Assembly (NCBI RefSeq): GCF_001187505.1
Contig: NZ_CP012150.1
Span: forward strand, 6,730,048-6,794,047
Length of the DNA: 64,000 nt
Reading direction: 5' to 3'
Origin: Mycolicibacterium goodii
GTDB lineage: Bacteria > Actinomycetota > Actinomycetes > Mycobacteriales > Mycobacteriaceae
Shown here: in pieces, positions 13,180-28,856 of the stretch
Numbering within the stretch: the stretch's first letter is position 1
Layout: every line of letters starts with the position of its first letter
The notes under the pieces: model-generated
The model's input: the letters and a program-made list of their open reading frames with translations, nothing else
What the model was told of the DNA's origin: nothing
Database searches by the model: none
Made by a program: the position numbers and the translations under genes

Positions 13180-13548
13180 TTACAGCACCTCCGGGGCGAG
13201 CGAGACGATCTTCATGAACTTCTTCTCGCGCAGTTCCCGGCCGACGGGGCCGAAGATGCGCGTGCCGCGCGGATCGTTGTCGTTCTTGATGATGACGGCG
13301 GCGTTCTCATCGAACTTGATGTAGCTGCCGTCGGCGCGACGCCGCTCCTTGACGGTGCGGACCACGACGGCCTTGACGACATCGCCACGCTTGACGTTGC
13401 CGCCCGGGATGGCGTCCTTGACGGTCGCCACGATGACATCGCCGATTCCGGCGTAGCGCCGCGACGAGCCACCGAGAACGCGGATGCACAAGATCTCCTT
13501 GGCGCCCGTGTTGTCGGCGACCTTCAACCGCGATTCCTGCTGAATCAC
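13180..13548 (-). CDS. rplN: 50S ribosomal protein L14
   Basis: L14 starts (M)[17 protein letters not shown] and is 122 residues. GTG at 13548 is preceded by AGGAG. The open frame extends further upstream, but only as non-homologous leader sequence. It is the first gene of the spc operon, which here has its own promoter because the S10 operon lies 27 kb away. Confidence 0.97.
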
Positions 13549-13829: not shown

Positions 13830-15212
13830 TCAGCCCAGCGTCTCCTCCACCGCGGCCGCGGCCGCGAGCACCAGCGCGTCGGCGTGACGACGCCCCACGA
13901 TCTGCAGTCCGACCGGCGCCCCGCCGACGGTCCCGGCAGGCACCGAGATGGCGGGCTGACCGGTCAGGTTGAACGGCATGGTCACGGCCAACGCACCCCA
14001 GTGATCCACCTGCCGGCCCGCGATCTCGGTGGGCATCGGCCCCTCGGCCGCGAACGCCGGGACCTGGGTGGCCGGCAGCAGGAGCAGGTCGAAACGCTCG
14101 AACGCCTCGGCCATCCGCGCGACGAGACGGGCGCGTGCCTCGTGGGCGTCGGCGAGCAGCTCGGCGGTCATCGCGCCGGCCGCGTCCAGGTAACCGCGCA
14201 GCGTCGGGTGGATGTCGCGCCCTGGCGGTGCACCACGCAGCTGGGTGTGGACATCGGGTGCCGAGAGGGTGCGGTAGGCCAGGCCGCAGTCCGGGTCGAC
14301 GGCCAGCTGCGCGGGTACCGGTCGGGCTCCGGTCGCGGCGACGAACTTCTCGGCCGCGGTCTGCACGACCTCGATGACCTGCGGGTCGCACGGTGCGTTG
14401 CCCAGGTCGGGTGCGAACGCGATGCGAAGCCCGCGCAGATCCGCGGTCAGGTGGTCTTCGAACCGTACGTGCGCCGGGATCGAGGCGCGGTCGAACGGAT
14501 CGATTCCACAGACGCAGTCGAGGAAACGTGCGGTGTCACGCACCGTGCGGGTCAGGGCGCCGTAGTGGTCGTTGTCGGCCGCGCCGGTGTGCCGGGGGCC
14601 CCGCGGGACGAGGCCGTAGGTGGGTTTGAACCCGACCAGGCCGCAGTAGGACGCGGGGATGCGGAGGGACCCCGCGCCGTCGGTGCCGGTGGCGACGGGC
14701 ACCATGCCCGCGGCCACCGCGGCGGCCGATCCTCCGCTCGACCCGCCGGGAGTGAGTGCGAGATCCCAGGGGTTGCGGGTGACGCCGTGCAGCGCCGACG
14801 CGGTGAAGGACGCCCGCCCGAATTCCGGTGAGGCGGTCACGCCGATGGGCACCGCACCGGCGGCGACGGCACGTTGCACCAGCGTGCAGGTGTGGTCGGC
14901 GACCCGATCGGCGTACAGCGCACTGCCCATGGCGAACGGCCATCCGGTAACCGGATGAAGTTCCTTGACTCCCAAGGGAACTCCGGACATCGGGCCGGGA
15001 TCCCGACCGGCCCGCACCGACTCGTCCACCGCGCTCGCCCGTTGCATGGCGCCTTCGGCGTCGACGTGGACGAACGCACCGAGGGTTGCGTTGCACTCCC
15101 CGATCCGGTCGAGTGCCTGCTGCACGACGGCACGCGCGGTCAACGCACCCGAACGCACGAGCGCCGCCGTCTCGACGACGCTGCGGCCCGGTTCGGCCAG
15201 GGACCACGTCAC
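13830..15212 (-). CDS. Amidase (amidase signature family)
   Basis: The 460-residue protein has the Ser-cisSer-Lys amidase core: K83 in GVKELHP, the signature TPGGSSGGSAAAVAAG with S158, and nucleophile S182 in GTDGAGSLRIPAS. The usual GGS before LR is AGS here, a small departure. It hydrolyses an amide to acid plus ammonia or amine; the substrate is unknown. GTG 15212 overlaps the permease stop (GTGA), so the two are coupled. It is the last gene of a minus-strand run that begins at 23616 with the HDO cluster, which suggests that a nitrogen compound is deamidated in that pathway. Confidence 0.92.
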   Translation of the reverse strand: MTWSLAEPGRSVVETAALVRSGALTARAVVQQALDRIGECNATLGAFVHVDAEGAMQRASAVDESVRAGRDPGPMSGVPLGVKELHPVTGWPFAMGSALYADRVADHTCTLVQRAVAAGAVPIGVTASPEFGRASFTASALHGVTRNPWDLALTPGGSSGGSAAAVAAGMVPVATGTDGAGSLRIPASYCGLVGFKPTYGLVPRGPRHTGAADNDHYGALTRTVRDTARFLDCVCGIDPFDRASIPAHVRFEDHLTADLRGLRIAFAPDLGNAPCDPQVIEVVQTAAEKFVAATGARPVPAQLAVDPDCGLAYRTLSAPDVHTQLRGAPPGRDIHPTLRGYLDAAGAMTAELLADAHEARARLVARMAEAFERFDLLLLPATQVPAFAAEGPMPTEIAGRQVDHWGALAVTMPFNLTGQPAISVPAGTVGGAPVGLQIVGRRHADALVLAAAAAVEETLG

Positions 15213-16750
15213 AGCAGCACCACCGCCGCTATTCCGGTCGCCACCAGAAGGCCGGTGACCACCGGGATGAACAGGCGCCGCGCCAGGTCGATCACCGACA
15301 CCCCGGTCAGACCCGCGACGACGATCAACGAGGACCAGATCACCAGTGTGCCGCCGCCGGTCCAGCTCGCACCGTTCTGCGCGATGGCGGCCAGGGTGGC
15401 GACGTCGGAGGTCCCGTCCCCGAGCGTCGATGCCAGCGACCCGGTGAACGGCAGGCCCGGCCAACCGTTGCCGTCCAGCCCGATCAGCATTCCGACGATC
15501 AGCATCGCGAACGCCGCGAACACCGGCGCCTGCGGAATGTGGTCCTGTACCGCGCCCACCGCGTCGAACAGGAATGCCGGCGCCGCGGCATCTTCGGGCA
15601 GTCCGAGAATTCCGCCCGAATAGTCGGCCAGGCCGATGTAGACGAATCCGGCGACGGGGATGACCATGCCCATGGTGCGGAACGAGAACGCGACGCCTTC
15701 GGTGAAGTGCCTGCCGACATCCTCGAGCCAGTCTTTTCGGTTGGCTACGAACGAGATTGCCACGAGCGCGAGCGCGGCCGTGCCACCCACCAGCGGTGCG
15801 CCCAGCCCTTCGTCGATGTCCGGGATGACCGTGGTGAACCGGCCCAGGAGCATGAGGACCAGCAATCCGGCGAACAGCACGGGGACCGCAACCGCAACCA
15901 GCACGCCCTTGGGGCCCGTCGGTTGCTCGGCCTCGGTTTGCACCGGCGCAGTCAGGGTGGCGACGGCCGCGGTCTCCTGCGCCGGACCACCGGCACCGGT
16001 GATCGGACTCGGTGGATCCGGCAGCTGAGCGGGTGCCGCGGGCAGGGAGACGTCGTCGACGGACCCCGGAGCTCGGGTCTTGGTGCGGACATCGCGGAAA
16101 TAGACGATCGCCAAGGCCACTGCCCCGGCGATCAACGCGATGATGGTGGCCCGGTCGGCGATCAACCGCGCGGGCACGTCGGCGCCCTCGGCGGACAACG
16201 CAGGCGCCACACCCATGATGTAGTCCGAACTGAGCGCCATGCCCTGACCGGCGATGGCGATCGCCAGTGCGGCGCCCAGCAGCGGCAGCCCGGCCCGCAC
16301 CGCGGCGGGCAGCAGGATCGCGGCGATCAGCGGCAGGACGGGCGTCGGCCAAAATGCCAGCGAAAGAAGAAAAGTCACGACGGCGAGCAGTAGGTACGAG
16401 ATGTGACCGTTGCGGAACAGGCCGCGCAGCGGACGGATCATGATGGCGTCGGCGCCCAGCGCCCGCATCGCACCGAGCATCGCGGAGACCAGTGCAATGA
16501 TGATGAAAATCGGTAGCAGTTCCCGGGTTCCGGTGATTGCGGCGTTGAATACCGCGCCCACGCCGGTGGTCACACTGCCCTGGTAGACCAGGCCGGTGAG
16601 AAACGTTGCCAGCAGCGCGGGCGCTATGACGTTCTTCTTGGCGACCACGGTGCCGATCAACACCACCAGACCGATCAAATACACCCAATGAGCTGCGGAC
16701 AACGTGTTCACATCCAATCGACTAGAACTTCCTGGTTGCCTGTCGTTCAT
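15209..16750 (-). CDS. Multi-pass membrane permease, paralogue 1
   Basis: The 513-residue protein has about 12 hydrophobic segments and a charged, Pro/Ala-rich cytoplasmic linker near residues 225-275. I do not recognise a named family, but the pattern resembles ion-transporter-superfamily symporters. Conserved motifs are FWPTPVLPLIAA, IAGQGMALSSDYIMGVAP, LDGNGWPGLPFTGSLAS and NGASWTGGGTLVIWSS. All recur in the permease at 27243-28856. ATG 16750 is used; GTG 16711 aligns better with the paralogue start. It probably imports the substrate of the adjacent amidase/HDO pathway, an inference from position only. Confidence 0.8.
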   Translation of the reverse strand: MNDRQPGSSSRLDVNTLSAAHWVYLIGLVVLIGTVVAKKNVIAPALLATFLTGLVYQGSVTTGVGAVFNAAITGTRELLPIFIIIALVSAMLGAMRALGADAIMIRPLRGLFRNGHISYLLLAVVTFLLSLAFWPTPVLPLIAAILLPAAVRAGLPLLGAALAIAIAGQGMALSSDYIMGVAPALSAEGADVPARLIADRATIIALIAGAVALAIVYFRDVRTKTRAPGSVDDVSLPAAPAQLPDPPSPITGAGGPAQETAAVATLTAPVQTEAEQPTGPKGVLVAVAVPVLFAGLLVLMLLGRFTTVIPDIDEGLGAPLVGGTAALALVAISFVANRKDWLEDVGRHFTEGVAFSFRTMGMVIPVAGFVYIGLADYSGGILGLPEDAAAPAFLFDAVGAVQDHIPQAPVFAAFAMLIVGMLIGLDGNGWPGLPFTGSLASTLGDGTSDVATLAAIAQNGASWTGGGTLVIWSSLIVVAGLTGVSVIDLARRLFIPVVTGLLVATGIAAVVLL

Positions 16751-16885
16751 GTAACACTAAGTTGGTCTTCAGTTTTCGCAATTCGACCGATTGCCCCGAG
16801 GAGGTCGGCGGCAAACCGCACATCGTGAACCGAGAGAGCATGTGCACTGTGTCCCTTGCCATCTCGCGGTCAACACCGAACCGGT
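16751..16885. promoter_or_regulatory. Gap upstream of permease 1, with a TGTGCACTGT box
   Basis: This is the only sizeable gap (135 bp) in the minus-strand run between RidA and the permease, so an internal promoter is likely. TGTGCACTGT at 16841-16850 is an exact match to 27149-27158 upstream of the paralogous permease. Confidence 0.45.
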
Positions 16886-17320
16886 CTACACCACCGCGGC
16901 GATCAGATCGACCTCGACGGGCGCACCGGACGGCAGCGCCTGCACACCGATGGCGGCGCGCACCGGAACGCCGGCCTCGCCGAGTTCTGCGCGCAGCGCG
17001 GCCGAGGCGCCGTCGGCGACGGCCGAGAGGTCGTGGAACGACGCCGTGCCGGCGATGTACACGGTCATCCGCAGGCAGCGCAGTCCCGCGGCGCCGTCGG
17101 GCAGTACCGAACGGGCCGCGGCCAGTGCGTTGCGGGCGGCCACACCGGCCGCACCGTGTGCCTGCTGCGCCGACACGGTGTCGCCGACGACACCACGCAG
17201 CACCAGTTGACCGTCGCGGCGCGGCGTCATCCCCGCGGTGTAGACGACTCCGTCGTGCAGCAGCGCCGGCCGGTAGTCACCCTGCGGGACAGGCGCGGCC
17301 ACCGGGTTCTCAGTCGACAC
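16886..17320 (-). CDS. RidA/YjgF-family enamine/imine deaminase
   Basis: The 144-residue protein has the YjgF/RidA fold signature, with MTVYIAGTASFHDL and the C-terminal VRAAIGVQALPSGAPVEVD. The latter includes the arginine that binds the carboxylate in RidA deaminases. Such proteins hydrolyse reactive enamine or imine intermediates to ketone plus ammonia. Its GTG start overlaps the end of the gamma-glutamyltransferase gene by 11 nt. In this operon a role in clearing an imine from amine oxidation is a reasonable inference. Confidence 0.88.
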   Translation of the reverse strand: MSTENPVAAPVPQGDYRPALLHDGVVYTAGMTPRRDGQLVLRGVVGDTVSAQQAHGAAGVAARNALAAARSVLPDGAAGLRCLRMTVYIAGTASFHDLSAVADGASAALRAELGEAGVPVRAAIGVQALPSGAPVEVDLIAAVV

Positions 17321-18902
17321 CGATCGCGATCCCCTCCTGGCGCGGATCGGCCGCGCCGCTCAGCACGCCGCGCGGGTCGCGCCGGATCACCTGGGCGCTT
17401 CCGCCCGCTCCGAAGGCCGGTTGCACGACGACGCGGTGCCCCATGTCCCGCAGTCGGGTTCGGACGTCGTCGGGGATGGTGGCCTCGACACGCAGTTCGT
17501 CGGGTTGTCCGATGACGTCGGCGTCGGATCCTGGGAACACCGTGAACCGCGGTGCGCTGACCGCTTCTGCCGGGTCGAGTCCGTGGTCGAACAGATGCGA
17601 GAGCAACTGCATGTTCCACTGCACCTGACCGTCACCGCCGGGGATGGCGCCGAGGGCGAGCAGTTCTCCGTCGGTGCCGGTGGCGATCCAGGCGTTGAGG
17701 GTGTGCAGCGGCTTGCGCCGCGGCGCAACCTCGTTGGGATGTCCGGGGATAAGGTAGGCCCCTCGCCCCAGCCGGTTGTTGAGCACGACGCCGGTGCCGG
17801 GGACGGTGGTCTTGGCACCGAACGTGAAGCCCAGCGAGTGGATGAACGACACCGCACGACCGTCCGCGTCGACCGCGACGGTGCACGTCGTGTCACCGCC
17901 GGCGACGCTGAACGACAGACGCTGCTGTGCCGACGCGTCCAGCGCGCGACGCTGTTCGGCAATCCTGCGGGGGTCCAACACTTCCCGCACACCCGAACCG
18001 TCGCTGCCGCACAGCTCGAACCGGTCATGGAACGCCAGTCGCGCAGCGCGGGCCATGCGGTCGATGGCCTCGGCGCCCAGCCACGGCGTCTCACCGAGCG
18101 CGCCGTCGCACAGCGCGGCCTGCTGCAGCACCATCCAGCCCGGGGTGGGCAGCGGGGTCTGGTGGATCGTCGCGCCTGCGTAGCCGCCGGTGAGCGCGGC
18201 CTCGGGCGCGACGACGGCACCTGCGGCCCACTCGTCGCCGGTGAACGGCGCGCCGGCCGCACGCAGCACGGCCACGGCGCGTTCGGCGAACTCACCGGTG
18301 TAGAACCATTCGGGTGCCGCCGCGAGACGCCGGATGGTGCGCGCCAGGTCGGGCTGAGGCAGGCGCTGCCCGACGGCAGGCGGAACGCCGGAGGGCGTGT
18401 ACACCGCGGCGAGATCGGCGTCGGCGCGGACGGCGTCGAAGGCCTCCCGCACGTCGGTGACGGTTTTCGCCGAACACGGCACACCGTGGTCGGCCATCCG
18501 CGCCGCCGGTTCCCACAACTGGGTGAGCGCGGTGCGGGCACCGTGGGCGTGCAGCGCCGCCAGCGCCGCAGGCGCGCCGGGGACCGCGACGCCGAGGGCG
18601 CCGTCGATCGGGATGCCGGAACGCTCCCGGTAGAAATCCGGGGTGCCGCCGTCGGGGCCGAAACCGGATCCGTTGACCGTCCACACCCGCCCGTCGGGTT
18701 CGCGGACCACGGCGAAGGCGTCGCCGCCGATTCCGCACTGCCCCGGCAGGGTCAGCCAGGTGATCGCGGCCATCGCCAGGGTGGCGTCGATCGCGTTGCC
18801 GCCGTCGGCGAGCACCCGCGCGCCGGCGAAGCTGGCGGCGGGATGGCTCGAGCTGACCATCCCGCCGGTCGACAGGGTCGGCGGTCGCTGCACGCTGTTC
18901 AC
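17310..18902 (-). CDS. Gamma-glutamyltransferase-family Ntn hydrolase
   Basis: The 530-residue protein has the catalytic threonine context GGDTTCTVAVDADG, which aligns with TTHxSVVD of gamma-glutamyltransferases (T339 predicted nucleophile after autoprocessing). It also has the GVVLNNRLGRG loop. No signal peptide is visible, so unlike periplasmic GGT it is probably cytoplasmic. That fits hydrolysis of an intracellular gamma-glutamyl amide or acyl amide better than glutathione salvage. Its GTG overlaps the Rieske 1 stop (GTGA). Confidence 0.9.
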   Translation of the reverse strand: MNSVQRPPTLSTGGMVSSSHPAASFAGARVLADGGNAIDATLAMAAITWLTLPGQCGIGGDAFAVVREPDGRVWTVNGSGFGPDGGTPDFYRERSGIPIDGALGVAVPGAPAALAALHAHGARTALTQLWEPAARMADHGVPCSAKTVTDVREAFDAVRADADLAAVYTPSGVPPAVGQRLPQPDLARTIRRLAAAPEWFYTGEFAERAVAVLRAAGAPFTGDEWAAGAVVAPEAALTGGYAGATIHQTPLPTPGWMVLQQAALCDGALGETPWLGAEAIDRMARAARLAFHDRFELCGSDGSGVREVLDPRRIAEQRRALDASAQQRLSFSVAGGDTTCTVAVDADGRAVSFIHSLGFTFGAKTTVPGTGVVLNNRLGRGAYLIPGHPNEVAPRRKPLHTLNAWIATGTDGELLALGAIPGGDGQVQWNMQLLSHLFDHGLDPAEAVSAPRFTVFPGSDADVIGQPDELRVEATIPDDVRTRLRDMGHRVVVQPAFGAGGSAQVIRRDPRGVLSGAADPRQEGIAIGVD

Positions 18903-19252
18903 GCCCCCTTGCGACGGCGCCGCGGCCCGACGGGCATCTCCCCCGGTTCGACACCGACGAAGATCTCGCCGTCACGTTCCTCGACGGGGTAGGTCTTGAT
19001 CGCGACGGTCGCAGGCGGGCAGATGGGCTCGCCGGTCTCGAGGTCGAATGCGCTTCCGTGGCAGGAGCATCCGATACCGTCGTCGACCAGTTTGCCCGAC
19101 GACAGCATGCAGTCCAGATGCGTGCAGTAGTTCGACGTCGCGTAGGCCTTGCCGTTGAGGCGGGCGACGGCGAACTCGTATTCGCCTGCGAAGAACCGTC
19201 GCACCATGCCCTCGGGCACCTGACCGGATCTGGCGACTCGGGTGAATTCCAT
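18899..19252 (-). CDS. Rieske [2Fe-2S] ferredoxin 1
   Basis: The 117-residue protein is a complete soluble Rieske ferredoxin. Its cluster ligands are C43-x-H45 (NYCTHLDC) and C62-x2-H65 (CSCHGSAFD), followed by the usual LETGEP turn. Rieske ferredoxins of this size carry electrons from an FAD reductase to an oxygenase. The C-terminal tail is basic (GPRRRRKGA), unlike ferredoxin 2. It lies 14 nt downstream of the aldehyde dehydrogenase gene. Confidence 0.93.
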   Translation of the reverse strand: MEFTRVARSGQVPEGMVRRFFAGEYEFAVARLNGKAYATSNYCTHLDCMLSSGKLVDDGIGCSCHGSAFDLETGEPICPPATVAIKTYPVEERDGEIFVGVEPGEMPVGPRRRRKGA

Positions 19253-19266
19253 TGCAGCTCCTGTGA

Positions 19267-20712
19267 TCAGACGGCCGGAGTGAGGTAGACGGTTTTTTCG
19301 AGCGTGTAGAACTCCATGAGCGTCGGCCCGGCCTGTTCCTTGTGGGTCTGGGTGCTCGACGCCTTGTAGCCCCCGAAGGGTGCGTTCATGGCCATGCCGG
19401 TCGTGGGCTGGTTGATCTTGACCAGTCCGGTCTTCGACTGCCGGGCGAACCGGGTTGCCGCGGCGAGATCCGAGGTCACGATCGAGGCGGCCAGGCCGTA
19501 TTCGGTGGCGTTGGCCAGTGCGACGGCCTCGTCGAGGTCCATCGCGCGCTGGAAGGCGACCAGCGGTCCGAACACTTCCTCGGTGACGATGCGCATGGTG
19601 GGCAGCGCATCTGCGAAAACCGCTGGGCGGACGAAGAATCCGCGATCGCCGGCCGTGGTGCCGCCGCAGCGCAGTGTCGCGCCCTCGGTGATCCCAATGT
19701 GCACGTAGCGCAGGAATTTCTCCATCTGGTCGGAACTCGCGAGCGGCCCCATCTGCACGCCGGGTTCGTCGCCAGGGCCGACGGTCAGCGCGTCGGCCCT
19801 GGCCGCCACTCGTTCCAGCAGGGCGTCGTGGATCGCGTCGACGGCGATGACCCGGCTGGTACCGGTGCAGGCCTGTCCGCTGAGCCCGAAGGCACCCTTG
19901 ACGATCAGTGCGGCCGCGCCGTCGAGGTCCGCGTCCTCGGCGACCACGACGGGGTTCTTGCCGCCCATCTCCAGCTGGACGCGGCGCTGCGGGCCCACCT
20001 GCTGGTGGATCGCGCGGCCGACCGCCGTCGATCCGGTGAAGGTGACCGCCGCGACCCGCGGATCGGCGGTGACCGCGGCGCCCGCCACGCCGTCACCCTG
20101 GACCAGCGCGAGCGCCGACGGCGGCAGACCACCGTCCAGCAGCGCCTCGACCAGACGCTGCCCCATGAGCGGTGTGATCTCCGACGGCTTGTACAGCACG
20201 GGATTTCCGGCTGCCAGCGCGGGCCCGAGCTTGCGGGACGGGATGTTGAACGGGAAGTTCCACGGTGTGATGGCACCGACGATGCCGACGGGCTCGCGCA
20301 GGGTGTAGACCAGCGCCTCCCCCGCGACGGGGTAGGTGGCGCCGGTGCAACGCAGTGCCTCGCCGGCGTAGAAGCGCAGGTTCGCCGGGGTCCTGGTGAC
20401 CTCCATGGTGGCCTCGGCGACGGTCTTGCCCTCTTCCCGCACCAGCTCGTCGATCAATGCCTGGGCACGCGATTCCAGCTGTGTGGCAGCGGCTTCCAGG
20501 ATCGCCGCGCGGCGCTCCGGCGGCGTGGCGGCCCACTCGGGCGCGGCCTTGTCGAGTGCGTCGACGGCGGTGCGCACGTCGACGTCGTCGGACGCCGGGA
20601 AGGTGCCGACGAGATCGTCGGGGTCGGCCGGGTTGTACCGCGCGAACGTCCGCCCCGACGCGGCCGGAACCCATTGCCCGTCGATGAAGTTGGCTCCCTC
20701 GACAGCGCTCAC
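19267..20712 (-). CDS. NAD(P)-dependent aldehyde dehydrogenase
   Basis: The 481-residue ALDH has E248 (QLEMGGKNP) and C282 (SGQACTGTSR), the nucleotide-binding TFTGSTAVGRAI and the WNFPFNIPSRK segment. It resembles the semialdehyde/benzaldehyde dehydrogenase branch, but the substrate cannot be read from sequence. GTG 20712 overlaps the reductase stop (GTGA), and I prefer it to an upstream ATG at 20745. In the operon it would oxidise the aldehyde released by oxygenative C-N or C-C cleavage. Confidence 0.93.
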   Translation of the reverse strand: MSAVEGANFIDGQWVPAASGRTFARYNPADPDDLVGTFPASDDVDVRTAVDALDKAAPEWAATPPERRAAILEAAATQLESRAQALIDELVREEGKTVAEATMEVTRTPANLRFYAGEALRCTGATYPVAGEALVYTLREPVGIVGAITPWNFPFNIPSRKLGPALAAGNPVLYKPSEITPLMGQRLVEALLDGGLPPSALALVQGDGVAGAAVTADPRVAAVTFTGSTAVGRAIHQQVGPQRRVQLEMGGKNPVVVAEDADLDGAAALIVKGAFGLSGQACTGTSRVIAVDAIHDALLERVAARADALTVGPGDEPGVQMGPLASSDQMEKFLRYVHIGITEGATLRCGGTTAGDRGFFVRPAVFADALPTMRIVTEEVFGPLVAFQRAMDLDEAVALANATEYGLAASIVTSDLAAATRFARQSKTGLVKINQPTTGMAMNAPFGGYKASSTQTHKEQAGPTLMEFYTLEKTVYLTPAV

Positions 20713-21935
20713 TGTGCCACCTCCTCGGCGTCGACGAGCTCCCACAGATCGCTGTCCTGGTCCTGCAGCGCGGCGCGCGGAATACGCCGGCCCAGCAGTT
20801 CCCGGCCGACCATGACGTCTTCACCACGATCGACGGTGAACACGCCGCACAGCGTGTCGTCGGTGTCGACGTAGAACGCGGTGAACTCGAAACCCTCGAT
20901 GTCACCGCGGATCACCGCATCGCCGGTGGCGGCGCCGAGCAGTTGGAGGTTGTGCTCGTACTGGTCGGACCAGAACCACGGGGCGTCGTCGTTGACGGCG
21001 TCGCGACCCAGCATCGCGTTGGCGACCGCGGCGCCCTGCCGGTTCGCGTTGTCGAAGTGTTCGACGCGCAGGTGTCTGCCCGCGCGGTCGGAGAAGCGGC
21101 GCGCGACGTCGCCCGCGGCGTAGATGTTGGGTACCGAGGCACGGCCCATGGCGTCGACGACGATGCCGTCATCGACGGCGAGTCCGGATGCCGCGGCGAC
21201 GTCGGTGTTCGGCGTGATGCCGATGCCGATCACGACGGCGTCGAACCGCAGATCCTGTGCGCCGGTGTTGACGACGACCCCGTCGGCGTCGGTGCGCACA
21301 CCCTCCACCGCGACGCCGGTGTGCAGGCCGACCCCGTTGCCGCGGTGCAATCGCACGATCTCGGTGCCCACGCGTGGCCCGAGCACGGTGCCCAGCGGGA
21401 TCGCCGCGGCCTCGAGTACCGTCACCGACACGCCGAGACCCACTGCTGTGGAAGCGATTTCGAGTCCGATGAAACCGGCGCCGATGATGCCGATCCGGCA
21501 TCCGGGGGTCAGGGTCCGGCCCAACCGCCGGGCGTCGTCGAGGGTGCGCAGGTAGTGCACGAGTTCGGGACGCGGGCCCGGCACCGGCAGGCGGCGGGGC
21601 CGCCCGCCCGTGGCGAACAGCACCGCGTCCGCGCGGATCGGTGCCTGGCCGGCGATCTCGACGGTGCCGGTCGTGGCGTCGACGTGGGTCACCTCGGCGC
21701 CGGTGCGGATCTCGATGCTGTTGTCGGCGCACCACTTTTCGGGCAGGATCCACAGGTCATCCGGTGCGCCTGCGCCGGAGAGGAATTCCTTGGACAGCGG
21801 AGGCCGCTGGTACGGCGGGTGGGGTTCGTCGCCGATCAGGATGATCCGGCCGTCGAAGCCGCGGCGCCGCAGCGTGCGCGCGGCCACCGCGGCGGTCTGT
21901 CCCGCCCCGACGGTCACGAAGGTGCGGTCGGTCAT
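20709..21935 (-). CDS. FAD-dependent ferredoxin reductase
   Basis: The 408-residue reductase is of the rubredoxin/Rieske-ferredoxin reductase type. The FAD motif is VTVGAGQTAAVAARTLRRRG, the NAD-binding motif GIIGAGFIGLEIAS, and the C-terminal FAD motif NIYAAGDVAR. A reductase C-terminal domain follows. ATG 21935 overlaps the stop of Rieske ferredoxin 2 (ATGA), so the redox pair is translationally coupled. It should pass electrons from NAD(P)H to the Rieske proteins. A paralogue lies at 62672-63859. Confidence 0.93.
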   Translation of the reverse strand: MTDRTFVTVGAGQTAAVAARTLRRRGFDGRIILIGDEPHPPYQRPPLSKEFLSGAGAPDDLWILPEKWCADNSIEIRTGAEVTHVDATTGTVEIAGQAPIRADAVLFATGGRPRRLPVPGPRPELVHYLRTLDDARRLGRTLTPGCRIGIIGAGFIGLEIASTAVGLGVSVTVLEAAAIPLGTVLGPRVGTEIVRLHRGNGVGLHTGVAVEGVRTDADGVVVNTGAQDLRFDAVVIGIGITPNTDVAAASGLAVDDGIVVDAMGRASVPNIYAAGDVARRFSDRAGRHLRVEHFDNANRQGAAVANAMLGRDAVNDDAPWFWSDQYEHNLQLLGAATGDAVIRGDIEGFEFTAFYVDTDDTLCGVFTVDRGEDVMVGRELLGRRIPRAALQDQDSDLWELVDAEEVAQ

Positions 21936-22285
21936 GCGTTGGCTTCCTCTCCTGCGGTCACGGGCGACAGTCGCGCCGTGGTGGGGTCGACGTATACGGT
22001 GTCGTCGTCGACGCGCACCGCGTAGGTGGGTTGGCAGCGGTCCTGGCTCTCCTCGTATCCGGTCTCGAGGTCGAACTGCCACTGGTGGCCGGGGCAGATC
22101 ACCTTGCCGTGCAGCAGGGTTCCTTTGACCAGGGACCGGTCCTGGTGCACGCATGCATCGGCGAATGCGTACACCCGTCCCGCCGCCTCGAACAGCGCGA
22201 TGGCCAGACCGTCGAGTTCCACCCGGAGTTTGCGGCGCCGGGCGAGCTCTTTACGGCTCGCCACCGCAACCCAGTTCGCAGTCAC
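21932..22285 (-). CDS. Rieske [2Fe-2S] ferredoxin 2
   Basis: The 117-residue soluble Rieske ferredoxin has cluster ligands C45-x-H47 (ADACVHQDR) and C64-x2-H67 (VICPGHQWQFD). It differs clearly from ferredoxin 1 in the same operon. GTG 22285 is supported by an upstream GAAAGG. It sits directly between the HDO gene and the reductase, so it is the likeliest immediate electron donor to the diiron oxidase. Confidence 0.92.
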   Translation of the reverse strand: MTANWVAVASRKELARRRKLRVELDGLAIALFEAAGRVYAFADACVHQDRSLVKGTLLHGKVICPGHQWQFDLETGYEESQDRCQPTYAVRVDDDTVYVDPTTARLSPVTAGEEANA

Positions 22286-22329
22286 AGCAACACCTTTCTG
22301 TCGAGGCGGCGGATCGGGAGCAGATGGGC

Positions 22330-23049
22330 TCAGACGGCGGCCGGCTCGAGATCCGGCGCGACGTAGTAGTCGTAGAGGCCCTTGGTGTAGGAGAACCGCA
22401 TCTCGGCGCCCCAACGCACCAGTTGCAGGCAGCGCTGCTGCAGCTGCGGGGTGTCGGCGTGGTCGAGCACGATCTGGTATCCGCGCTCGCCGTGCACCAC
22501 GTCAGAGGTGATGTGCAGATCGAAGAACTCGATCTCGTCCTCGGAGAACCCGTACACCTCGCGCAGCGGCACGATCTGCTTGGTGTAGATGCTGGGCACC
22601 TGGGATTCCAGCCCGACCACCAGGGCCGCGGTGGCGACCACGAAGTGCTCGCGCTGCGAGACCGCGTAGCACCACGCCTGTAGACCGCGCGTGATCGGGT
22701 TCATGTTCGACGGGTCCTCGATGCGTTCCCGCGTGGTGCCGCACGCCTCACCGAACTTGATCAGCAGATCGGTGTGACGGATGTCGGCCAGCTCCTCCTC
22801 GTACATGTTCTGCAGCGTGAAGTCCTTCGCGCCGGTGAACTCGTCAGGGGTGTTCGAGTAGATGTTGGCCAGGTAGTCGGCGAACGGACCCACGTAGTGG
22901 TAGTGGTTCTCGGCCCACCGGGCGAAGTGCTCCTTGGTCAGCTTGCCCTCGGCCCACGCCTTGGAGAACGACGCGTTCTTGGCTTCGCGGCCCTTGATCG
23001 CGTTCTGGAGTTCGGCGCGGAATTCGTCGCGTCCCAGCAGCTCGGTCAT
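22330..23049 (-). CDS. Haem-oxygenase-like diiron oxidase (HDO; TenA/PqqC-like fold)
   Basis: The 239-residue all-helical protein is related to PqqC/TenA and CADD. The HDO metal-ligand pattern is complete: E85-x6-H92 (EEELADIRH), E148 (VVGLESQ) and H179-x3-D183-x2-H186 (LHITSDVVHGE). This matches the spacing known in CADD and SznF, so a diiron site is predicted rather than PQQ chemistry. HDOs activate O2 for N-oxygenation, desaturation or C-C cleavage of amines and amino acids. ATG 23049 follows AAAGGA. It heads the group Rieske 2, reductase, ALDH, Rieske 1, GGT, RidA. The reaction is undetermined. Confidence 0.85.
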   Translation of the reverse strand: MTELLGRDEFRAELQNAIKGREAKNASFSKAWAEGKLTKEHFARWAENHYHYVGPFADYLANIYSNTPDEFTGAKDFTLQNMYEEELADIRHTDLLIKFGEACGTTRERIEDPSNMNPITRGLQAWCYAVSQREHFVVATAALVVGLESQVPSIYTKQIVPLREVYGFSEDEIEFFDLHITSDVVHGERGYQIVLDHADTPQLQQRCLQLVRWGAEMRFSYTKGLYDYYVAPDLEPAAV

Positions 23050-23169
23050 TGGTGTTCCTTTCGCTGAAAATGCTTGGGTTCCAGGGAGATTAATGACGTC
23101 TCGCGGTGCGGACCATGGTCACAATCACCGGGCGGGCGACCGTTTTGCGGTCAACCTGCACAGCCGGCG

Positions 23170-23616
23170 TCACACCTGCGCGGCGGTCAGTGCCTCGAAT
23201 TCGGCGAGGATCGCCGCGCCGACGGCCTTGTCCTGGTCGCCGTTGCCGCCGCTGATGCCCACTCCCCCCACGATCTGCCCGTCGTACACCAGCGGGAATC
23301 CGCCGACGAAGATCGCGAATTTGCCGGGCAGCATGTGGCTGATGCCGAACGCCTCGTTGCCGGGCAGCGCGGGCCCGTTGGGCGGTTCGTTGAACAGGTG
23401 CGTGGCACGTTCGTGACCTGCCGCGGTGAACGCCTTCGCGATCGCGATGTCCACACCGGTGAGCCTGGCTCCCGGCAACCGGTGCAGCGCAATGACATTG
23501 CCGCCGTCATCACAGATGCACAGGGTCTGCTTGACGCCGATCTCCTCGGCTTTGGCACGGCCCGCGGCCAGCAATGGCAACGCGTCATCGAGGGTGATGC
23601 GGTGAATTCTGTGCAT
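23170..23616 (-). CDS. GlcG/HbpS-family protein
   Basis: The 148-residue protein has the GlcG/HbpS (DUF336) pattern. Near the N-terminus is ICDDGGNVIALHRLPGA, then GVDIAIAKAFTAAG, and the glycine-rich GGFPLVYDGQIVGGVGISGG. Members bind haem or cobalamin-like ligands or occur as small partners in catabolic operons; the role here is unknown. ATG 23616 is chosen from homology. It is 120 nt upstream of the HDO gene and divergent from the PucR regulator. Confidence 0.85.
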   Translation of the reverse strand: MHRIHRITLDDALPLLAAGRAKAEEIGVKQTLCICDDGGNVIALHRLPGARLTGVDIAIAKAFTAAGHERATHLFNEPPNGPALPGNEAFGISHMLPGKFAIFVGGFPLVYDGQIVGGVGISGGNGDQDKAVGAAILAEFEALTAAQV

Positions 23617-23814
23617 TTGATCTCTCGCTCTCTCGCAGCTCGGGCTGACGCAGCCATGTCTATCAACGCCCACACCATCCAGGTGATGGTTAAAATGACC
23701 GGAATAGGCCCTCAAGGCGGGTCAAGTTGCACATGGTGCCTGTGCGAGGGCTGCGGTAATCGAATAGCAGGCACCGGGCGCGCAGGGCACCAGGCACAGA
23801 GCACGGGGGTTGAC
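23617..23814. promoter_or_regulatory. Divergent control region between GlcG/HDO operon and pucR-type gene
   Basis: In this 198-bp region GGTGCCTG (23735-23742) and CAGGCACC (23768-23775) are perfect inverted arms. A further CAGGCACA lies at 23791-23798, and a TGCACA hexamer at 23728-23733. Another TGTGCA (23610-23615) overlaps the GlcG start codon. These are candidate operators for the adjacent PucR regulator. Confidence 0.5.
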
Positions 23815-25503
23815 ATGACGGCACCACCGATCGACAGCGACCGGATGACCGTGCGCGGACTGCTCGACGAGTCACTGATGTCGAGCGCCAGGGTGGTGGC
23901 GGGCGAAAATCTGCTCGACGAGGAACTCAACTGGGTGCTGCCACTCAACGAAGTTCTGTCACAACATGATCGGCTCGACGCGGTGGCGGTGTACGCGCGC
24001 CCGGAGTCGTTGAGCGGCCGCGCGTCGACGCTGTCGGCGCTGGCCGCCAGGGGTGCGACGACGTTGCTCGTCGACGGCGTGGCCCCACCCGACCTCGGCG
24101 GACTGCCGACCGGACTGGTGGTCGTCGAACTCGGTATTCCGGTGGGCTTCGCCGCACTCAACCGGCTGCTGGCCGAGCGCGCGCTCAGCCAGGAGGTCCA
24201 CGTCATGCGCTACTCGACGCACGTACACGCCACCCTGGCCGGATTGTTCCACCGCGGCGCCGGCCTGCAGATCCTGGTGCGCGAGGTTTCCAACCTGGCC
24301 CGCAACCCCGCGGTCGCCCTCGACGCCCGCGGCCATGTGGTGGCCCACCATGGGCTGCCACCCGAAGCCGTGGCAGCCCTGGCCGATTCGATGAGCCGGA
24401 TGCTCGCCACCGACCTCCCGGCGTCCGAGCGCCGCCACGACGGCCACGACACCCGCACCCAGCAGGTCACCGGACCCCAGGACAGCACGTGGACCTGTGT
24501 GGCGAGCGCGATCCGGCTAGGTAAATCGTTCGAGGGATGGGTGGCCGTCCTGGTCCCGGCCCTCGGGCCGGACCACACCGCCAATGCGCCGACCAGACAC
24601 GACCTGGCCCGGCATGCGGTGCTCACCGAACAGGCCACCGCGATCATCGGTTCGGAGATGCTGCGGCAGCGCAGCGTCGACGAGGCCGAGGAACGCGCAC
24701 GGGGCGATTTCGTCCAGGCGCTCGTGCACGGCAGTTTCTCCAGCGAGCACGACATGCGGGCCCGCGCCGAACACCACGACATCGAGCTCGACGCCCGGTT
24801 CGGCGTGTTCGTGGCGCCGGGTGTGCTGCCTCGGGTCTCCGACAGCCCGACGACCCCGATGGTGCGTCTTGCGCGCTACGCGGCCGGGGTGGCCCCGCAC
24901 CCGTCGGTGCACGCATACGTCACGGTGATCGGTGACGTGCTCGTCGTGGTCCGCACGCTGCGCGGCGAGGACGCCGGCACCATGCGCACCGAGATGGCCG
25001 ACTACGCCGAGGCCATGTCGCACGAACTGCAGCGGCGCCGTGGTCTGCCCGCCCCGGTCGCCTTCGGACGGCCCGCCCTCGGCGCAGGCGAGGTCAGGGA
25101 GAGTTATCGCGAGGCCAGGGTCGCGCTCGGCATCGCCCGGCGCCTGCACCGCACCGGGGCGACGTCGTATCAGCAACTGCGGGGTTTCACGGTGCTGGCC
25201 CAGGTCGCCGAGACCGAGGACAGCCGCCAGCTTGTCCGAGATGTGTTGGGCCCGTTGCGCTCTTCACCGGACCTGTTGGAGACGCTGGAGGCGTACCTGT
25301 CCGAGGGCGGCAACATCAATGCCACCGCACGCACGCTCAACGTGCACCGCAACACCATGCTGGCCAAGCTGGACCGCATCTCCCGGATGCTCGGCATGGA
25401 CGTCCGCGATCCCGAGCATCAGTTCACGGTGTGGCTGGCCATCCGTCTCGATCTGCTCGACGAGGTGCATTCGGCGGTCGAACGCGAGGCGAGCTTCCGC
25501 TGA
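23815..25503 (+). CDS. PucR/CdaR-family transcriptional regulator
   Basis: The 562-residue regulator has an N-terminal PucR ligand domain (TVRGLLDESLMSSARVVAGE onwards), a central GGDEF-like/CdaR region, and the C-terminal PucR helix-turn-helix. That helix-turn-helix is NINATARTLNVHRNTMLAKL followed by RISRMLG. PucR proteins usually activate purine, amino-acid or amine catabolic genes in response to a metabolite. Divergent orientation from the HDO operon makes that operon the natural target. The open frame extends upstream, but ATG 23815 matches the domain start. Its TGA abuts the stop of the convergent MFS gene. Confidence 0.9.
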   Translation: MTAPPIDSDRMTVRGLLDESLMSSARVVAGENLLDEELNWVLPLNEVLSQHDRLDAVAVYARPESLSGRASTLSALAARGATTLLVDGVAPPDLGGLPTGLVVVELGIPVGFAALNRLLAERALSQEVHVMRYSTHVHATLAGLFHRGAGLQILVREVSNLARNPAVALDARGHVVAHHGLPPEAVAALADSMSRMLATDLPASERRHDGHDTRTQQVTGPQDSTWTCVASAIRLGKSFEGWVAVLVPALGPDHTANAPTRHDLARHAVLTEQATAIIGSEMLRQRSVDEAEERARGDFVQALVHGSFSSEHDMRARAEHHDIELDARFGVFVAPGVLPRVSDSPTTPMVRLARYAAGVAPHPSVHAYVTVIGDVLVVVRTLRGEDAGTMRTEMADYAEAMSHELQRRRGLPAPVAFGRPALGAGEVRESYREARVALGIARRLHRTGATSYQQLRGFTVLAQVAETEDSRQLVRDVLGPLRSSPDLLETLEAYLSEGGNINATARTLNVHRNTMLAKLDRISRMLGMDVRDPEHQFTVWLAIRLDLLDEVHSAVEREASFR

Positions 25504-26895
25504 TCAGGCCGGGTCCGGCCCGAAGAACGACCCGGCCAGCCCGATGGCCACGATCACCGCGCCCGCGATGAACACTCCCGGATACGACGCGGCGCCGGCC
25601 AGGGCCACCGCGACCCAGGCTGCGCCGCAGGCCGATCCGGCGAAGCGCACCAGGTTGAACACGCCGAGACCGGTGCCCTCCGCGCCTGCAGGTGAGCGCG
25701 TCGCGCCGGTCGCCGCCGGGGTCTGCACCAGTGCGATGCCCACGCCCGCCGCCACCAGCGCGGCTGTCAGCAATCCCAGCATCAGGCGGTGCTGGGCAAC
25801 CGTGACGGCCAGGCCGACCTGCACCGCCAGCAACAGGATGAGCCCGACGCGCAGCACGCGGCGCGGCCCGAGTCGGTCCTGCCCGCGCCCCACCACCGGG
25901 CCCAGCACCGCCATCGCCACAGGCACCGTGAACAGCACCAGACCGGCCGCCGATATCGACACCTGATGCGCGACCAGATACAGCGGCACGGCCAGCAGGA
26001 TGGCCCCGAGACAGAACATCTGCGCAAACGCCGCGAGAGCACTTCTGGCAAAACGGGTTTCGGTGAGCAGGCGAACGTTGACAAACGGATTCGCCACCCG
26101 CGCACAGTGAAAGCAGAACCAGGCCAGCGCGACGACGCCGAGCACCATAGATGCCGGCGCGACCCAACCGCTGACGTTGTCCTGCGGCACCAGGGCCAGT
26201 CCGAGCATCAGCAGTGCCGAACCGAACGTCAACGCGGCCGCCCCGGTCAGGTCGAATGACATCTTGGCCCCGGGAAACCGCGGCACGTAGCGCAGTGTGC
26301 TCACCAGGCCCGCCAGTGCGACCGGGACGAGCGGAACGAAGACCCACCGCCATCCCCAGGTGTCGGCCACCAGACCGCCCAGGCTGGGACCCACAGCCTG
26401 CCCGATGCCGTTCACCGACGCCCATGCGCCCATGGCCTGGCCGCGGCGCGGCCCGGAGAACATCCACGCGATCAGTCCCATCACCGCGGGTGCGAACGCC
26501 GCCGCGGCAACGCCTCCCACCGACCGCCACGCGATCAGCAGCGGCAACGACGGCGCGGTCGCCGCGCCGACAGCACACACCGCGGTGGCGAGCAGCGCCG
26601 CGCAGTACACCCGACGGCGGCCGAATCGGTCGCCGAACCACCCGGCCAGCGGTATGGTCGCGGCGAAGCAGACCAGGAAGCCCACCACGACGAAAACGCC
26701 GCTCTCCAGAGAAGAATCGAACTCGTCGATGATCGCGCCGAGCGGCACGTTCACGACGTTGTTGCTGAGGGTGCCCACGAGCGTGCCGGCGAGCAGCGCG
26801 GTAAGGCCCAGCGGTGTACCGGTGTCGGTGCTGGTGTCCGGACCGTTCGGGGGGGTCTGCGCCTGGCGGACATCGGTCATGCTGTGCGTAACCAT
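25504..26895 (-). CDS. MFS transporter, DHA2 (EmrB/QacA) 14-TM family
   Basis: The 463-residue protein has about 14 hydrophobic helices. The MFS loop motif is GWFGDRFGRRRVY after TM2, and GPSLGGLVADTWGWRWVF marks TM5, as in EmrB/QacA-type drug:H+ antiporters. It is probably an exporter of toxic organic compounds. The start is GTG 26895, with ATG 26880 (MTDVRQ) as an alternative. It is divergent from permease 2 and convergent with pucR, so it may export pathway intermediates; that is inference. Confidence 0.88.
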   Translation of the reverse strand: MVTHSMTDVRQAQTPPNGPDTSTDTGTPLGLTALLAGTLVGTLSNNVVNVPLGAIIDEFDSSLESGVFVVVGFLVCFAATIPLAGWFGDRFGRRRVYCAALLATAVCAVGAATAPSLPLLIAWRSVGGVAAAAFAPAVMGLIAWMFSGPRRGQAMGAWASVNGIGQAVGPSLGGLVADTWGWRWVFVPLVPVALAGLVSTLRYVPRFPGAKMSFDLTGAAALTFGSALLMLGLALVPQDNVSGWVAPASMVLGVVALAWFCFHCARVANPFVNVRLLTETRFARSALAAFAQMFCLGAILLAVPLYLVAHQVSISAAGLVLFTVPVAMAVLGPVVGRGQDRLGPRRVLRVGLILLLAVQVGLAVTVAQHRLMLGLLTAALVAAGVGIALVQTPAATGATRSPAGAEGTGLGVFNLVRFAGSACGAAWVAVALAGAASYPGVFIAGAVIVAIGLAGSFFGPDPA

Positions 26896-27242
26896 CCTGT
26901 CGGCTGACGAGTTGCTGAGTGCTCGTGAATTTCTCTGTCCGCCACTCTCCCACCGGTGTGCCCGGTGTTGGCGGTTCCGGTCGGGTGAAGATGCACAACG
27001 CCTTGCCGCGACGGTGGGCCAAGGTGCACAAAATCACCGGTCGCCGCGATTTCGGCCACGACTGTCCGCCAAACGTAACAGCACTGAAACGCCTGGCCAT
27101 GCGATCGACACGATCGGAGCACATTGCACAGGGTGCGCCAGTTTCGGCTGTGCACTGTTGTCGTTGACCCACGCCCTGACCGCGCCGAACATTCCAGCAT
27201 CTGACTGCACAGCCCACCAGCAGTTCAACGAGAGGTCCCCCA
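26896..27242. promoter_or_regulatory. Divergent intergenic region rich in TGCACA boxes
   Basis: This 347-bp region lies between the DHA2 exporter and permease 2, with no convincing gene. It contains five TGCACA/TGTGCA hexamers: 26992, 27025, 27125, 27149 and 27206. TGCACAG (27125-27131) and CTGTGCA (27148-27154) form a perfect inverted pair. TGTGCACTGT (27149-27158) also occurs upstream of permease 1. In DNA of this composition I would expect about 0.1 such hexamers here by a rough base-frequency estimate. It is a candidate multi-site operator. Confidence 0.55.
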
Positions 27243-28856
27243 TTGGACACCCAACTCACCGCGGCGCACTGGATCTATCTCGCCGGCATCGTGGTCATCC
27301 TGCTCACGATGGCCATCCGCAAGAACATCGTCGTGCCCGCGGTCACCGCAACGCTGCTCACCGCCTGGGCGTTCTCGGGCAGCCTGATCACCGGGCTGTC
27401 GGCGATCTTCAACGCGAGCCTGACCGCGGCCAAGGAACTGTTCAACATCTTCCTGATCATCGCGATCGTCACGGCGATGCTCGGCGCGCTGCGCGAGATG
27501 GGCGCCGACCGCATGATGGTCACCCCGTTCCGACGCGTGATGCGCGCAGGACCCAGCAGCTTCATCGTGCTGGCCATCGTGACGTATGTGATCTCGTTGT
27601 TCTTCTGGCCCACCCCGGCCGTCCCGCTGGTGGGCGCGGTGCTCATCCCGGTGGCGATCCGCGCCGGTCTCTCGCCGATGTCGGTCGGCATGGTCATCGC
27701 GATCGCGGGCCAGGGCATGGCGTTGTCGTCGGACTACATCATCAAGGTCGCACCCGGAATCTCGGCGAAATCCGCTGGCGTGGACGCGGATTCGGTCGCC
27801 GACAAGGCCATGGTGCTGTCCCTCGTGGTGGGGTTGACCGCGCTGGTGCTCACCTACGTCATGCAGCGTCGCACCTGGCGCAACCCGTCCCCGGAGCTGC
27901 TGGTCGAGTGGGAGAACGCGGCCGAGCGCGGCGGGGAGGATGACGAGCAGGACAAGGGGGACACCCCGGGCGGCGGCGCGACCGCAGGCGGCAACGGGCG
28001 CGCCTCGGCAGGCGCCAACGGGCACCCACCCGCACCGACCGGCCCCCCGGTCGGCGGCGGCGCAGGCGGTGAAGCCGCCGTGAGCACGGTGTCCACCGTG
28101 AAAACCGTGCCGGTCGTGCAGCCCGTCGAGCCGGAGCAGGACCGAAAGACCGTGGCGGCAAAGGTTTTCGCACTCCTGGTGCCGGTGGTCTACCTGGCGT
28201 TCATCGTCTACCTGCTGCTCGGCAAGTTCACCGATGTGGTGCCCCCGCTCAAGGGCGGGGACGCCGCGGCGATCGTCGGCGGCCTGGCCGCGATGCTGCT
28301 GTTCGCCGCGTCGGCCACCAACGACAAACGCAACTTCCTGGAGACCTCGTCGCAGCACGTCGTCGACGGCCTGGTGTTCGCATTCAAGGCGATGGGCATC
28401 GTCCTGCCCATCGCGGGCTTCTTCTTCATCGGCAACGGCGACTTCTCGGCGGCCATCCTCGGCATGCCCGCGGACTCCACGGGCCCCGCGTTCCTGTTCG
28501 ACCTCATCACCGCCGCACAGTCGCACCTGTCGCCGAACCCGGTCATCACCTCGTTCGCGGTGCTGTTCGTCGGACTCATCGCGGGCCTCGAGGGCTCGGG
28601 TTTCAGCGGCCTGCCGTTGACCGGTTCGTTGTCCGGAGCGCTGGGTCCGGTGGTGCACATGGACCCGTCGACGCTGGCCGCGATCGGGCAGATGGGCAAC
28701 ATCTGGTCGGGTGGTGGCACCCTGGTCGCCTGGTCGTCGCTGGTGGCGGTGGCCGGTTTCGCCCGGGTTCCGGTGCTCAGCCTGGCCCGCAAGTGCTTCC
28801 TGCCGGTGATGGCCGGCCTCGTCCTGTCCACCGTCGTCGCGATCATCATCTTCTGA
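27243..28856 (+). CDS. Multi-pass membrane permease, paralogue 2
   Basis: The 537-residue paralogue of the permease at 15209-16750 has matching segments throughout. Examples are LTAAHWIYLAGIVV, FWPTPAVPLVGAVL, IAGQGMALSSDYIIKVAP, LEGSGFSGLPLTGSLSG and NIWSGGGTLVAWSSL. It has about 12 TM segments with a long Gly/Pro-rich cytoplasmic linker near residues 225-300 that paralogue 1 largely lacks. The start is TTG 27243 with GAGAGG upstream; no better start exists. Substrate is unknown. It lies just outside the HDO cluster and next to the FGE/sulfatase pair. Confidence 0.8.
   Translation: MDTQLTAAHWIYLAGIVVILLTMAIRKNIVVPAVTATLLTAWAFSGSLITGLSAIFNASLTAAKELFNIFLIIAIVTAMLGALREMGADRMMVTPFRRVMRAGPSSFIVLAIVTYVISLFFWPTPAVPLVGAVLIPVAIRAGLSPMSVGMVIAIAGQGMALSSDYIIKVAPGISAKSAGVDADSVADKAMVLSLVVGLTALVLTYVMQRRTWRNPSPELLVEWENAAERGGEDDEQDKGDTPGGGATAGGNGRASAGANGHPPAPTGPPVGGGAGGEAAVSTVSTVKTVPVVQPVEPEQDRKTVAAKVFALLVPVVYLAFIVYLLLGKFTDVVPPLKGGDAAAIVGGLAAMLLFAASATNDKRNFLETSSQHVVDGLVFAFKAMGIVLPIAGFFFIGNGDFSAAILGMPADSTGPAFLFDLITAAQSHLSPNPVITSFAVLFVGLIAGLEGSGFSGLPLTGSLSGALGPVVHMDPSTLAAIGQMGNIWSGGGTLVAWSSLVAVAGFARVPVLSLARKCFLPVMAGLVLSTVVAIIIF

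Follow-up and report, generated by a model that had tools for sequence, protein, structure and literature searches.

What does a predicted diiron enzyme do among genes for Rieske ferredoxins, a ferredoxin reductase, an aldehyde dehydrogenase (ALDH) and amidohydrolases? This question is raised by a gene cluster found in 64,000 nucleotides of Mycolicibacterium goodii DNA (contig NZ_CP012150.1, positions 6,730,048 to 6,794,047), hereafter the window, in a genome of 7.1 Mb on one contig. The enzyme belongs to the heme-oxygenase-like diiron oxidases (HDOs). With a probability of roughly 0.65, the operon encodes a multicomponent oxygenase driven by NAD(P)H, in which the HDO-fold diiron protein would be the oxygenase component and which would act in the breakdown of an imported nitrogen compound. 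The claim of a dedicated two-ferredoxin chain, already made in an initial annotation of the window, is strong, and is upheld by conserved linkage, by phyletic co-occurrence and by a non-homologous chain located beside the same HDO in Burkholderiales. Electron flow into the HDO, the order of the steps and a catabolic role are inferred; the substrate would be an amine or an amide.

The initial annotation had placed the cluster at 13830-25503. The genes inside this interval are real, but its extent was too short, since a major facilitator superfamily (MFS) gene and a second permease also belong to the set, which runs to 28856. Ten minus-strand genes with named domains were found at 13830-23616, as claimed, the permease being the sole one with no domain match, and the PucR gene is indeed divergent to the operon. 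A simple gene caller, based on codon usage, returned the same genes within 13830-28856, with some different starts and no extra ones. The features are:

23170-23616, minus strand: GlcG/HbpS-like protein (PF03928, 111 bits)
22330-23049, minus strand: HDO-family diiron oxidase/oxygenase, 239 amino acids
21932-22285, minus strand: Rieske ferredoxin 2 (Rieske-2), 117 amino acids, GTG start after AGAAAGG (PF00355, 53.9 bits)
20709-21935, minus strand: FAD/NAD(P)H ferredoxin reductase, HcaD/AndAa-like (PF07992, PF14759; under the NCBIfam equivalog cut-offs)
19267-20712, minus strand: ALDH, with Cys282 and Glu248 present (PF00171, 491 bits)
18899-19252, minus strand: Rieske ferredoxin 1 (Rieske-1), 117 amino acids (PF00355, 66 bits)
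17310-18902, minus strand: N-terminal-nucleophile hydrolase of the gamma-glutamyltransferase (GGT) fold, Thr338 kept, gamma-glutamyl pocket altered (PF01019, 310 bits)
16886-17320, minus strand: Rid-family (imine/enamine hydrolase-like) protein, RidA, Arg121 kept (PF01042, 52 bits)
15209-16750, minus strand: permease 1, start possibly at 16684 (no Pfam or NCBIfam family)
13830-15212, minus strand: amidase-signature hydrolase, accessory (PF01425, 327 bits; GGSSGGS at 156)
23815-25503, plus strand: PucR-family regulator, divergent (PF13556, PF17853)
25504-26895, minus strand: MFS transporter (PF07690, 184 bits)
27243-28856, plus strand: permease 2, predicted ion-transporter-superfamily fold (dicarboxylate/sulfate/TRAP-M/ArsB-like; no Pfam family)

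The HDO protein has the heme-oxygenase-like helical fold and contains a set of three histidine and three carboxylate ligands. The motif read in the initial annotation, E85-x6-H92, E148, H179-x3-D183-x2-H186, is exact, and is invariant in 84 of 84 homologues. The protein is a predicted two-metal, O2-activating diiron enzyme. It matches PF03070 at 39.7 bits (cut-off 22), but remains below the cut-offs of TIGR04305, the model for CADD-type 4-aminobenzoate synthases (94 bits against 200), and of TIGR02111, the model for PqqC (49 bits against 240). In the fold comparison CADD came on top, tied with PqqC, so that fold alone does not separate the two, and among solved structures the nearest in sequence are CADD-type proteins. 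Tyr27, Lys152 and Tyr43 of CADD, counted by hand on the alignment, are replaced in the HDO by S29, Q158 and W45, each invariant in 84 of 84 homologues; Tyr27 and Lys152 are described as sacrificial residues in PMC11965152. Since the sacrificial pair is absent and TIGR04305 is not reached, a CADD-type 4-aminobenzoate synthase was rejected; a PqqC identity was similarly disfavoured on the TIGR02111 score, and a TenA thiaminase is unlikely. These HDOs are carried in databases as 'TenA family transcriptional regulator' or 'pyrroloquinoline-quinone synthase', names by which their function is obscured.

Gene linkage was evaluated in actinobacterial loci, taken as the best 80 of 257 HDO relatives found in a scan of genome contigs, a sample which therefore leans to close orthologues. 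Genes were counted by tblastn with the window proteins, accepting non-overlapping matches with a coverage of at least 30%, and 61 of the 80 loci have full flanks, of about 10 kb on each side. In 78 of the 80, the HDO is followed on its strand by Rieske-2 and then the reductase, with no other recognised gene between them; in the two exceptions the contig ends (L059) or the Rieske-2 match failed the coverage cut (L043). Rieske-2 is the next recognised same-strand gene after the HDO in 79 loci. The complete counts, over all 80 loci and, in parenthesis, over the 61 full-flank ones, are: Rieske-2 79 (61), reductase 79 (61), Rieske-1 75 (61), ALDH 75 (60), PucR 74 (60), MFS 72 (57), GlcG 71 (59), permease 70 (57), RidA 68 (59), GGT-like 66 (56) and amidase 14 (14). 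When any match at E 1e-5 was accepted, the permease was found in 61 of the 61. Homologues mostly devoid of Rieske, reductase and ALDH genes, an outcome that the initial annotation had named as contrary to its proposal, are thus not what these counts describe. The co-occurrence it had proposed to check, of the HDO with two Rieske genes and a GGT, holds for both Rieske genes in every full-flank locus, but is less complete for the GGT-like gene and does not extend to the three Burkholderiales loci examined, which lack the Rieske genes.

The set persists through at least four gene orders, different in orientation and position (Corynebacteriales; Actinomadura/Nonomuraea; Streptomyces/Pseudonocardia; Blastococcus/Prauserella-type), with genes shuffled around the unit formed by HDO, Rieske-2 and reductase. 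The proteins most similar to those of the window are HDO and GlcG, each with a median identity of 90%, followed by Rieske-1 (81%) and the products of the remaining core genes (53-71%); the tightest constraint in the set, judged from these values, is accordingly on HDO and GlcG, and its conservation together with the HDO makes GlcG a candidate partner. Both Rieske proteins carry the CxH...CxxH motif, without exception in the two sets of homologues (73 of 73 and 72 of 72); 17 Rieske-domain matches were detected in the whole genome, two of them within this operon, which, together with the recurrence of the set in the 80 loci, speaks against a chance grouping. Apart from a DUF1275 gene, no cluster outside the set occurs in more than 18 of the 80 loci, so that no second oxygenase is conserved; many of the outside clusters, found in 18 loci at most, correspond to a ribosomal/sulfatase region of mycobacteria, and the small ones were identified in part, by eye. 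The DUF1275 membrane protein (PF06912; e.g. L017:3544-4278) is encoded in 37 of the 80 loci, often, not always, beside the permease.

As controls, six loci of distant TenA/HDO-fold relatives (L103, L104 and L106-L109, 12-20 kb each) were scanned, and a Rieske match at E 1e-3 was found in none of them; none of these relatives has been shown to be a CADD. The relative itself was found again by tblastn in three of the six, and L107-L109, in which it was not, are for this reason weaker controls. One partial reductase match, at 30%, lies at the edge of L103. In the same locus (L103:7467-11031) the gene of the distant HDO relative, at 30%, is part of an operon for succinate dehydrogenase/fumarate reductase, in which it separates the genes for the flavoprotein and the iron-sulphur subunit.

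HDO orthologues, at 91-100% identity, were found in 8 of 100 genomes of relatives, including that of the window, and the genomes with matches to Rieske-1 and to GlcG at E 1e-35 are the very same 8; being related by descent, they do not count as 8 independent events. Weak HDO matches are present in three other genomes (21-27%), and the genome of the window contains a second one, at 22%. Among named records, from which those of the window or very near to it may be excluded, the closest HDOs include those of Mycolicibacterium brisbanense (97%) and M. wolinskyi (96%). Homologue searches at E 0.001 produced 1284 and 1458 matches, overlapping sets which include distant relatives, and the best 120 of each were considered; in the search started from a Cupriavidus HDO, these best 120 comprise Achromobacter, Bordetella, Paraburkholderia and Hydrogenophaga, among others. 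The HDO family is thus known from many genera, with a patchy distribution. In the tree the outgroup branches are very long, and of the 39 inner branches 16 are open; no history was inferred from it.

A tblastn search of plasmid records with the HDO returned seven of them: six at 65-69%, of which four are from Cupriavidus and two from Caballeronia, and one from Azospirillum, whose match is a PqqC at 25%. Three of the six Burkholderiales loci (L097-L099) were examined. Each encodes an HDO (65-69%), an ALDH (47%), a GlcG (56-58%) and a permease (45-49%), together with two plant-type (Fer2) ferredoxins, a Fer2-FAD-NAD reductase, whose domains were scanned in L097, and an OCD/mu-crystallin-type enzyme; in L099 the reductase is possibly interrupted, since tblastn shows two adjoining pieces. 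No match to the Rieske proteins and reductase of the window was found in the three loci. Conversely, the Fer2 ferredoxins and the OCD enzyme have no match in the 80 actinobacterial loci, and the Burkholderiales reductase has a single weak one (L072). Because the same HDO subfamily adjoins two non-homologous sets capable of the same job, electron delivery to the HDO is favoured. HDO, GlcG, ALDH and permease form a core which is stable across the two phyla. A protein of 104-116 amino acids is encoded between the two plant-type ferredoxins (L097:14400-14720, L098:14078-14428, L099:11486-11800); it shows 37-77% identity to the L097 copy and no Pfam match in the two that were scanned.

A further locus, in genome G130, of the same phylum as the window (L102:8735-17793), contains an HDO at 73-74%, one Rieske and one Fer2 gene, GGT-like, RidA, OCD, GlcG, ALDH and MFS. 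It represents a mixed form of the two chains, and also includes a luciferase-like monooxygenase gene. A reductase gene is linked to the HDO in 79 of the 80 loci and in all three Burkholderiales loci, not in G130.

The accessory enzymes give indications on the chemistry. The GGT-like protein keeps the N-terminal threonine nucleophile and the Gly-Gly oxyanion hole (T338, G422 and G423 in 65 of 65 homologues), but does not reach the GGT model TIGR00066 (246 bits against 358). Residues Arg114, Asn411, Gln430, Asp433, Ser462 and Ser463 of the E. coli GGT correspond to S79, G358, R377, R380, H400 and T401, with R377 and R380 conserved in 65 of 65 homologues and S79 as serine in 63 of 65. The best PDB match of its small subunit is 5hft, which has Asn-Arg at the same place; deposited as a gamma-glutamyltranspeptidase, this is presumably HpxW, an oxamate amidohydrolase. 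Compared to GGT-family amidohydrolases of this kind, the window protein has an extra invariant arginine, Arg380. The amidase gene, listed in the initial annotation as part of the pathway, is present but does not belong to the core, as the counts given above indicate; of the 14 amidases, 11 show at least 69% identity and three 32-33%. ALDH homologues keep the cysteine in 72 of 72 and the glutamate in 71 of 72, and Arg121 of RidA is kept in 65 of 65.

The two permeases share 45% identity, in a family for which Pfam has no model, and no solved relative of the permease was found by sequence below E 0.4; the predicted fold, that of the ion-transporter superfamily, points only to carriers of organic anions. 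Permease 1 is found alongside the amidase in some genomes. The family also occurs in Burkholderiales and on an Arthrobacter plasmid (L105:15004-24648), where a permease is encoded without an HDO, beside a luciferase-like monooxygenase, an amidase, an ALDH and a TetR-Rid fusion protein; this gene company is suggestive of amide/imine chemistry, without being decisive.

Taken as a pathway, these components could operate as follows. A nitrogen compound, probably anionic, preferably an anionic amino-amide or lactam, would be imported by the ion-transporter-superfamily permease and sensed by PucR. Electrons would pass from NAD(P)H to the FAD reductase, to one or both Rieske ferredoxins and then to the diiron site, allowing repeated reaction with O2. 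The HDO would oxidise the carbon adjoining the nitrogen, giving an imine or carbinolamine, or a cleaved aldehyde product. The imine may be hydrolysed with the help of RidA, or, in Burkholderiales, be dealt with by the OCD/mu-crystallin-type enzyme, and ALDH would convert the aldehyde to the acid. The resulting half-amide, with its amide next to an acidic group, would then be split by the GGT-fold hydrolase with release of ammonia; where an amidase is present, it could also split such an amide.

Several points weigh against this proposal. Linkage is no proof of electron transfer, and the operon may share its carriers with an unlinked oxygenase. In the G130 locus, a 20 kb stretch, no match to either reductase was detected. 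The orthologues are patchy: among 396 genomes drawn from the whole phylum, only 2, those of the window and G130, contain one at E 1e-20; a 31% HDO relative is present in G138, from the same sample. GGT-like, RidA, MFS, GlcG, PucR, ALDH and permease genes are each missing from one to five of the 61 full-flank loci, and the GGT-like and RidA proteins of the window have no match in the three Burkholderiales loci. In addition, the catabolic view is drawn from the regulator, the transporter and the enzyme classes, and the MFS protein could export.

Other explanations were weighed against the same data. It is very improbable that the HDO works as a self-sacrificing 4-aminobenzoate synthase of the CADD type, or in some other single-turnover manner, with the Rieske genes as unrelated neighbours: the fold ranking and the closest solved relatives speak for a CADD-type protein, but the three replaced residues and the TIGR04305 score speak against it, and the idea of unrelated neighbours is contradicted by the gene linkage. 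It is unlikely that an oxygenase whose gene lies elsewhere receives the electrons of the Rieske/reductase chain, with the HDO contributing to the same pathway independently of NAD(P)H. Among NCBIfam models, those that fit the carriers best do belong to Rieske dioxygenase systems, chemical reductants with mediators can drive other HDOs, according to PMC13185094, and G130 has no linked reductase; this is opposed by the consecutive arrangement of HDO, Rieske-2 and reductase, by the oxygenase-type chain, of other ancestry, that accompanies this HDO in Burkholderiales and by the lack of a second oxygenase cluster widely common to the 80 loci.

The presence of ALDH, Rid, amidohydrolases, PucR and an importer-fold permease agrees with breakdown, and the widely shared clusters include no recognised assembly-line or ligase gene, the small clusters being identified in part. 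The opposite direction, a biosynthetic cluster in which a small natural product would be made from an amino acid modified by the HDO and be exported by the MFS protein, seems improbable, even if an MFS gene accompanies most full-flank loci (57 of 61) and the HDOs treated in PMC13185094 act in biosynthesis. The chance that the pathway degrades a gamma-glutamylated amine, as the initial annotation had supposed, is slim. A GGT-fold gene is frequent (56 of the 61), some GGTs of extremophiles have Ser and His-Thr at two of the altered places, and Asp433 variants of true GGTs retain part of the hydrolase activity (both from PMC8062742). The gamma-glutamyl derivative was nevertheless not borne out: the residues holding the glutamyl group are lost, with arginine in place of Asp433 in 65 of 65 homologues, the gene was not found in 5 of the 61 loci, and the widely shared clusters include no recognised gamma-glutamylamide synthetase.

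The multicomponent oxygenase proposed here was compared to known systems. HDOs as a kind are already known, as is one published HDO-redox pair, MboA/MboB of mangotoxin biosynthesis, described in an April 2026 paper (PMC13185094). MboA has the HDO fold and a diiron site, and a gene for an NAD(P)H reductase is dedicated to it; it requires this reductase, MboB, a flavin/Fe2S2 enzyme, for its second oxidation, and in its absence yields only traces of the first desaturation product and no alkyne. According to the paper, MboAB may be the first characterised dedicated pair of this type. The flavin/Fe2S2/NAD make-up of MboB matches that of the Burkholderiales reductase, which has a Fer2 domain, whereas the window reductase lacks this domain and is accompanied by separate Rieske proteins. 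MboA differs in being biosynthetic, in acting on a tripeptide and in having one reductase as partner, and the word 'Rieske' is absent from the paper; the HDO family of the window has, in comparison, ferredoxins, ALDH, GlcG and permease, plus Rid and PucR in Actinobacteria. The 4-aminobenzoate synthases CADD and NePabS differ by the sacrificial Tyr and Lys, absent from the window HDO. Multicomponent Rieske dioxygenases (HcaCD, AndAab) share a reductase and a Rieske ferredoxin of the same families, the window proteins being below their cut-offs, but have a terminal Rieske/mononuclear iron oxygenase in place of a diiron HDO.

In a literature search, supplements and subscription papers lying outside it, neither an assigned pathway for this gene set, in agreement with the initial annotation, nor an HDO paired with Rieske ferredoxins was found among the papers listed (20 of 950 in one case), nor in PMC13185094, PMC13061610 and PMC11965152. 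No paper was found for the guessed locus tags MSMEG_1457 to 1462. What is new is that one HDO subfamily occurs with chains of two kinds, Rieske-based and plant-type, and in linkage with ALDH, GlcG and a permease that has no family assignment. The family bears on how HDOs obtain electrons in the cell, since it offers many natural pairings and two non-homologous chains for one HDO subfamily; the HDO locus is likely to encode a new nitrogen-compound pathway in soil bacteria, amenable to direct reconstitution. Tentatively, and with chances slightly short of even, these systems might stand beside the soluble diiron monooxygenases and the Rieske dioxygenases as a separate, HDO-based class of multicomponent oxygenases, with a terminal HDO, GlcG as obligate partner, interchangeable two-ferredoxin chains (Rieske in Actinobacteria, plant-type in Burkholderiales) and a new route of soil organic-nitrogen breakdown.

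Concerning the layout of the operon, the overlaps of 4-11 nucleotides, attributed in the initial annotation to most junctions, are real but occur at five of nine, so that "mostly" was generous: Rieske-2/reductase, reductase/ALDH, Rieske-1/GGT and permease/amidase overlap by 4 nucleotides each and GGT/RidA by 11. Gaps of 44 and 14 nucleotides separate HDO from Rieske-2 and ALDH from Rieske-1; those between GlcG and HDO (about 120) and between RidA and permease (about 135) make more than one transcription unit possible. Promoter and terminator scans gave no signal above shuffled sequences. The cluster is embedded in a ribosomal-protein region, being flanked on one side by the ribosomal protein gene rplN (13180-13548) and on the other by a gene for a sulfatase-modifying factor (28880-29770), which is followed by a sulfatase gene; a rplN-like gene is present in 17 of the 80 actinobacterial loci.

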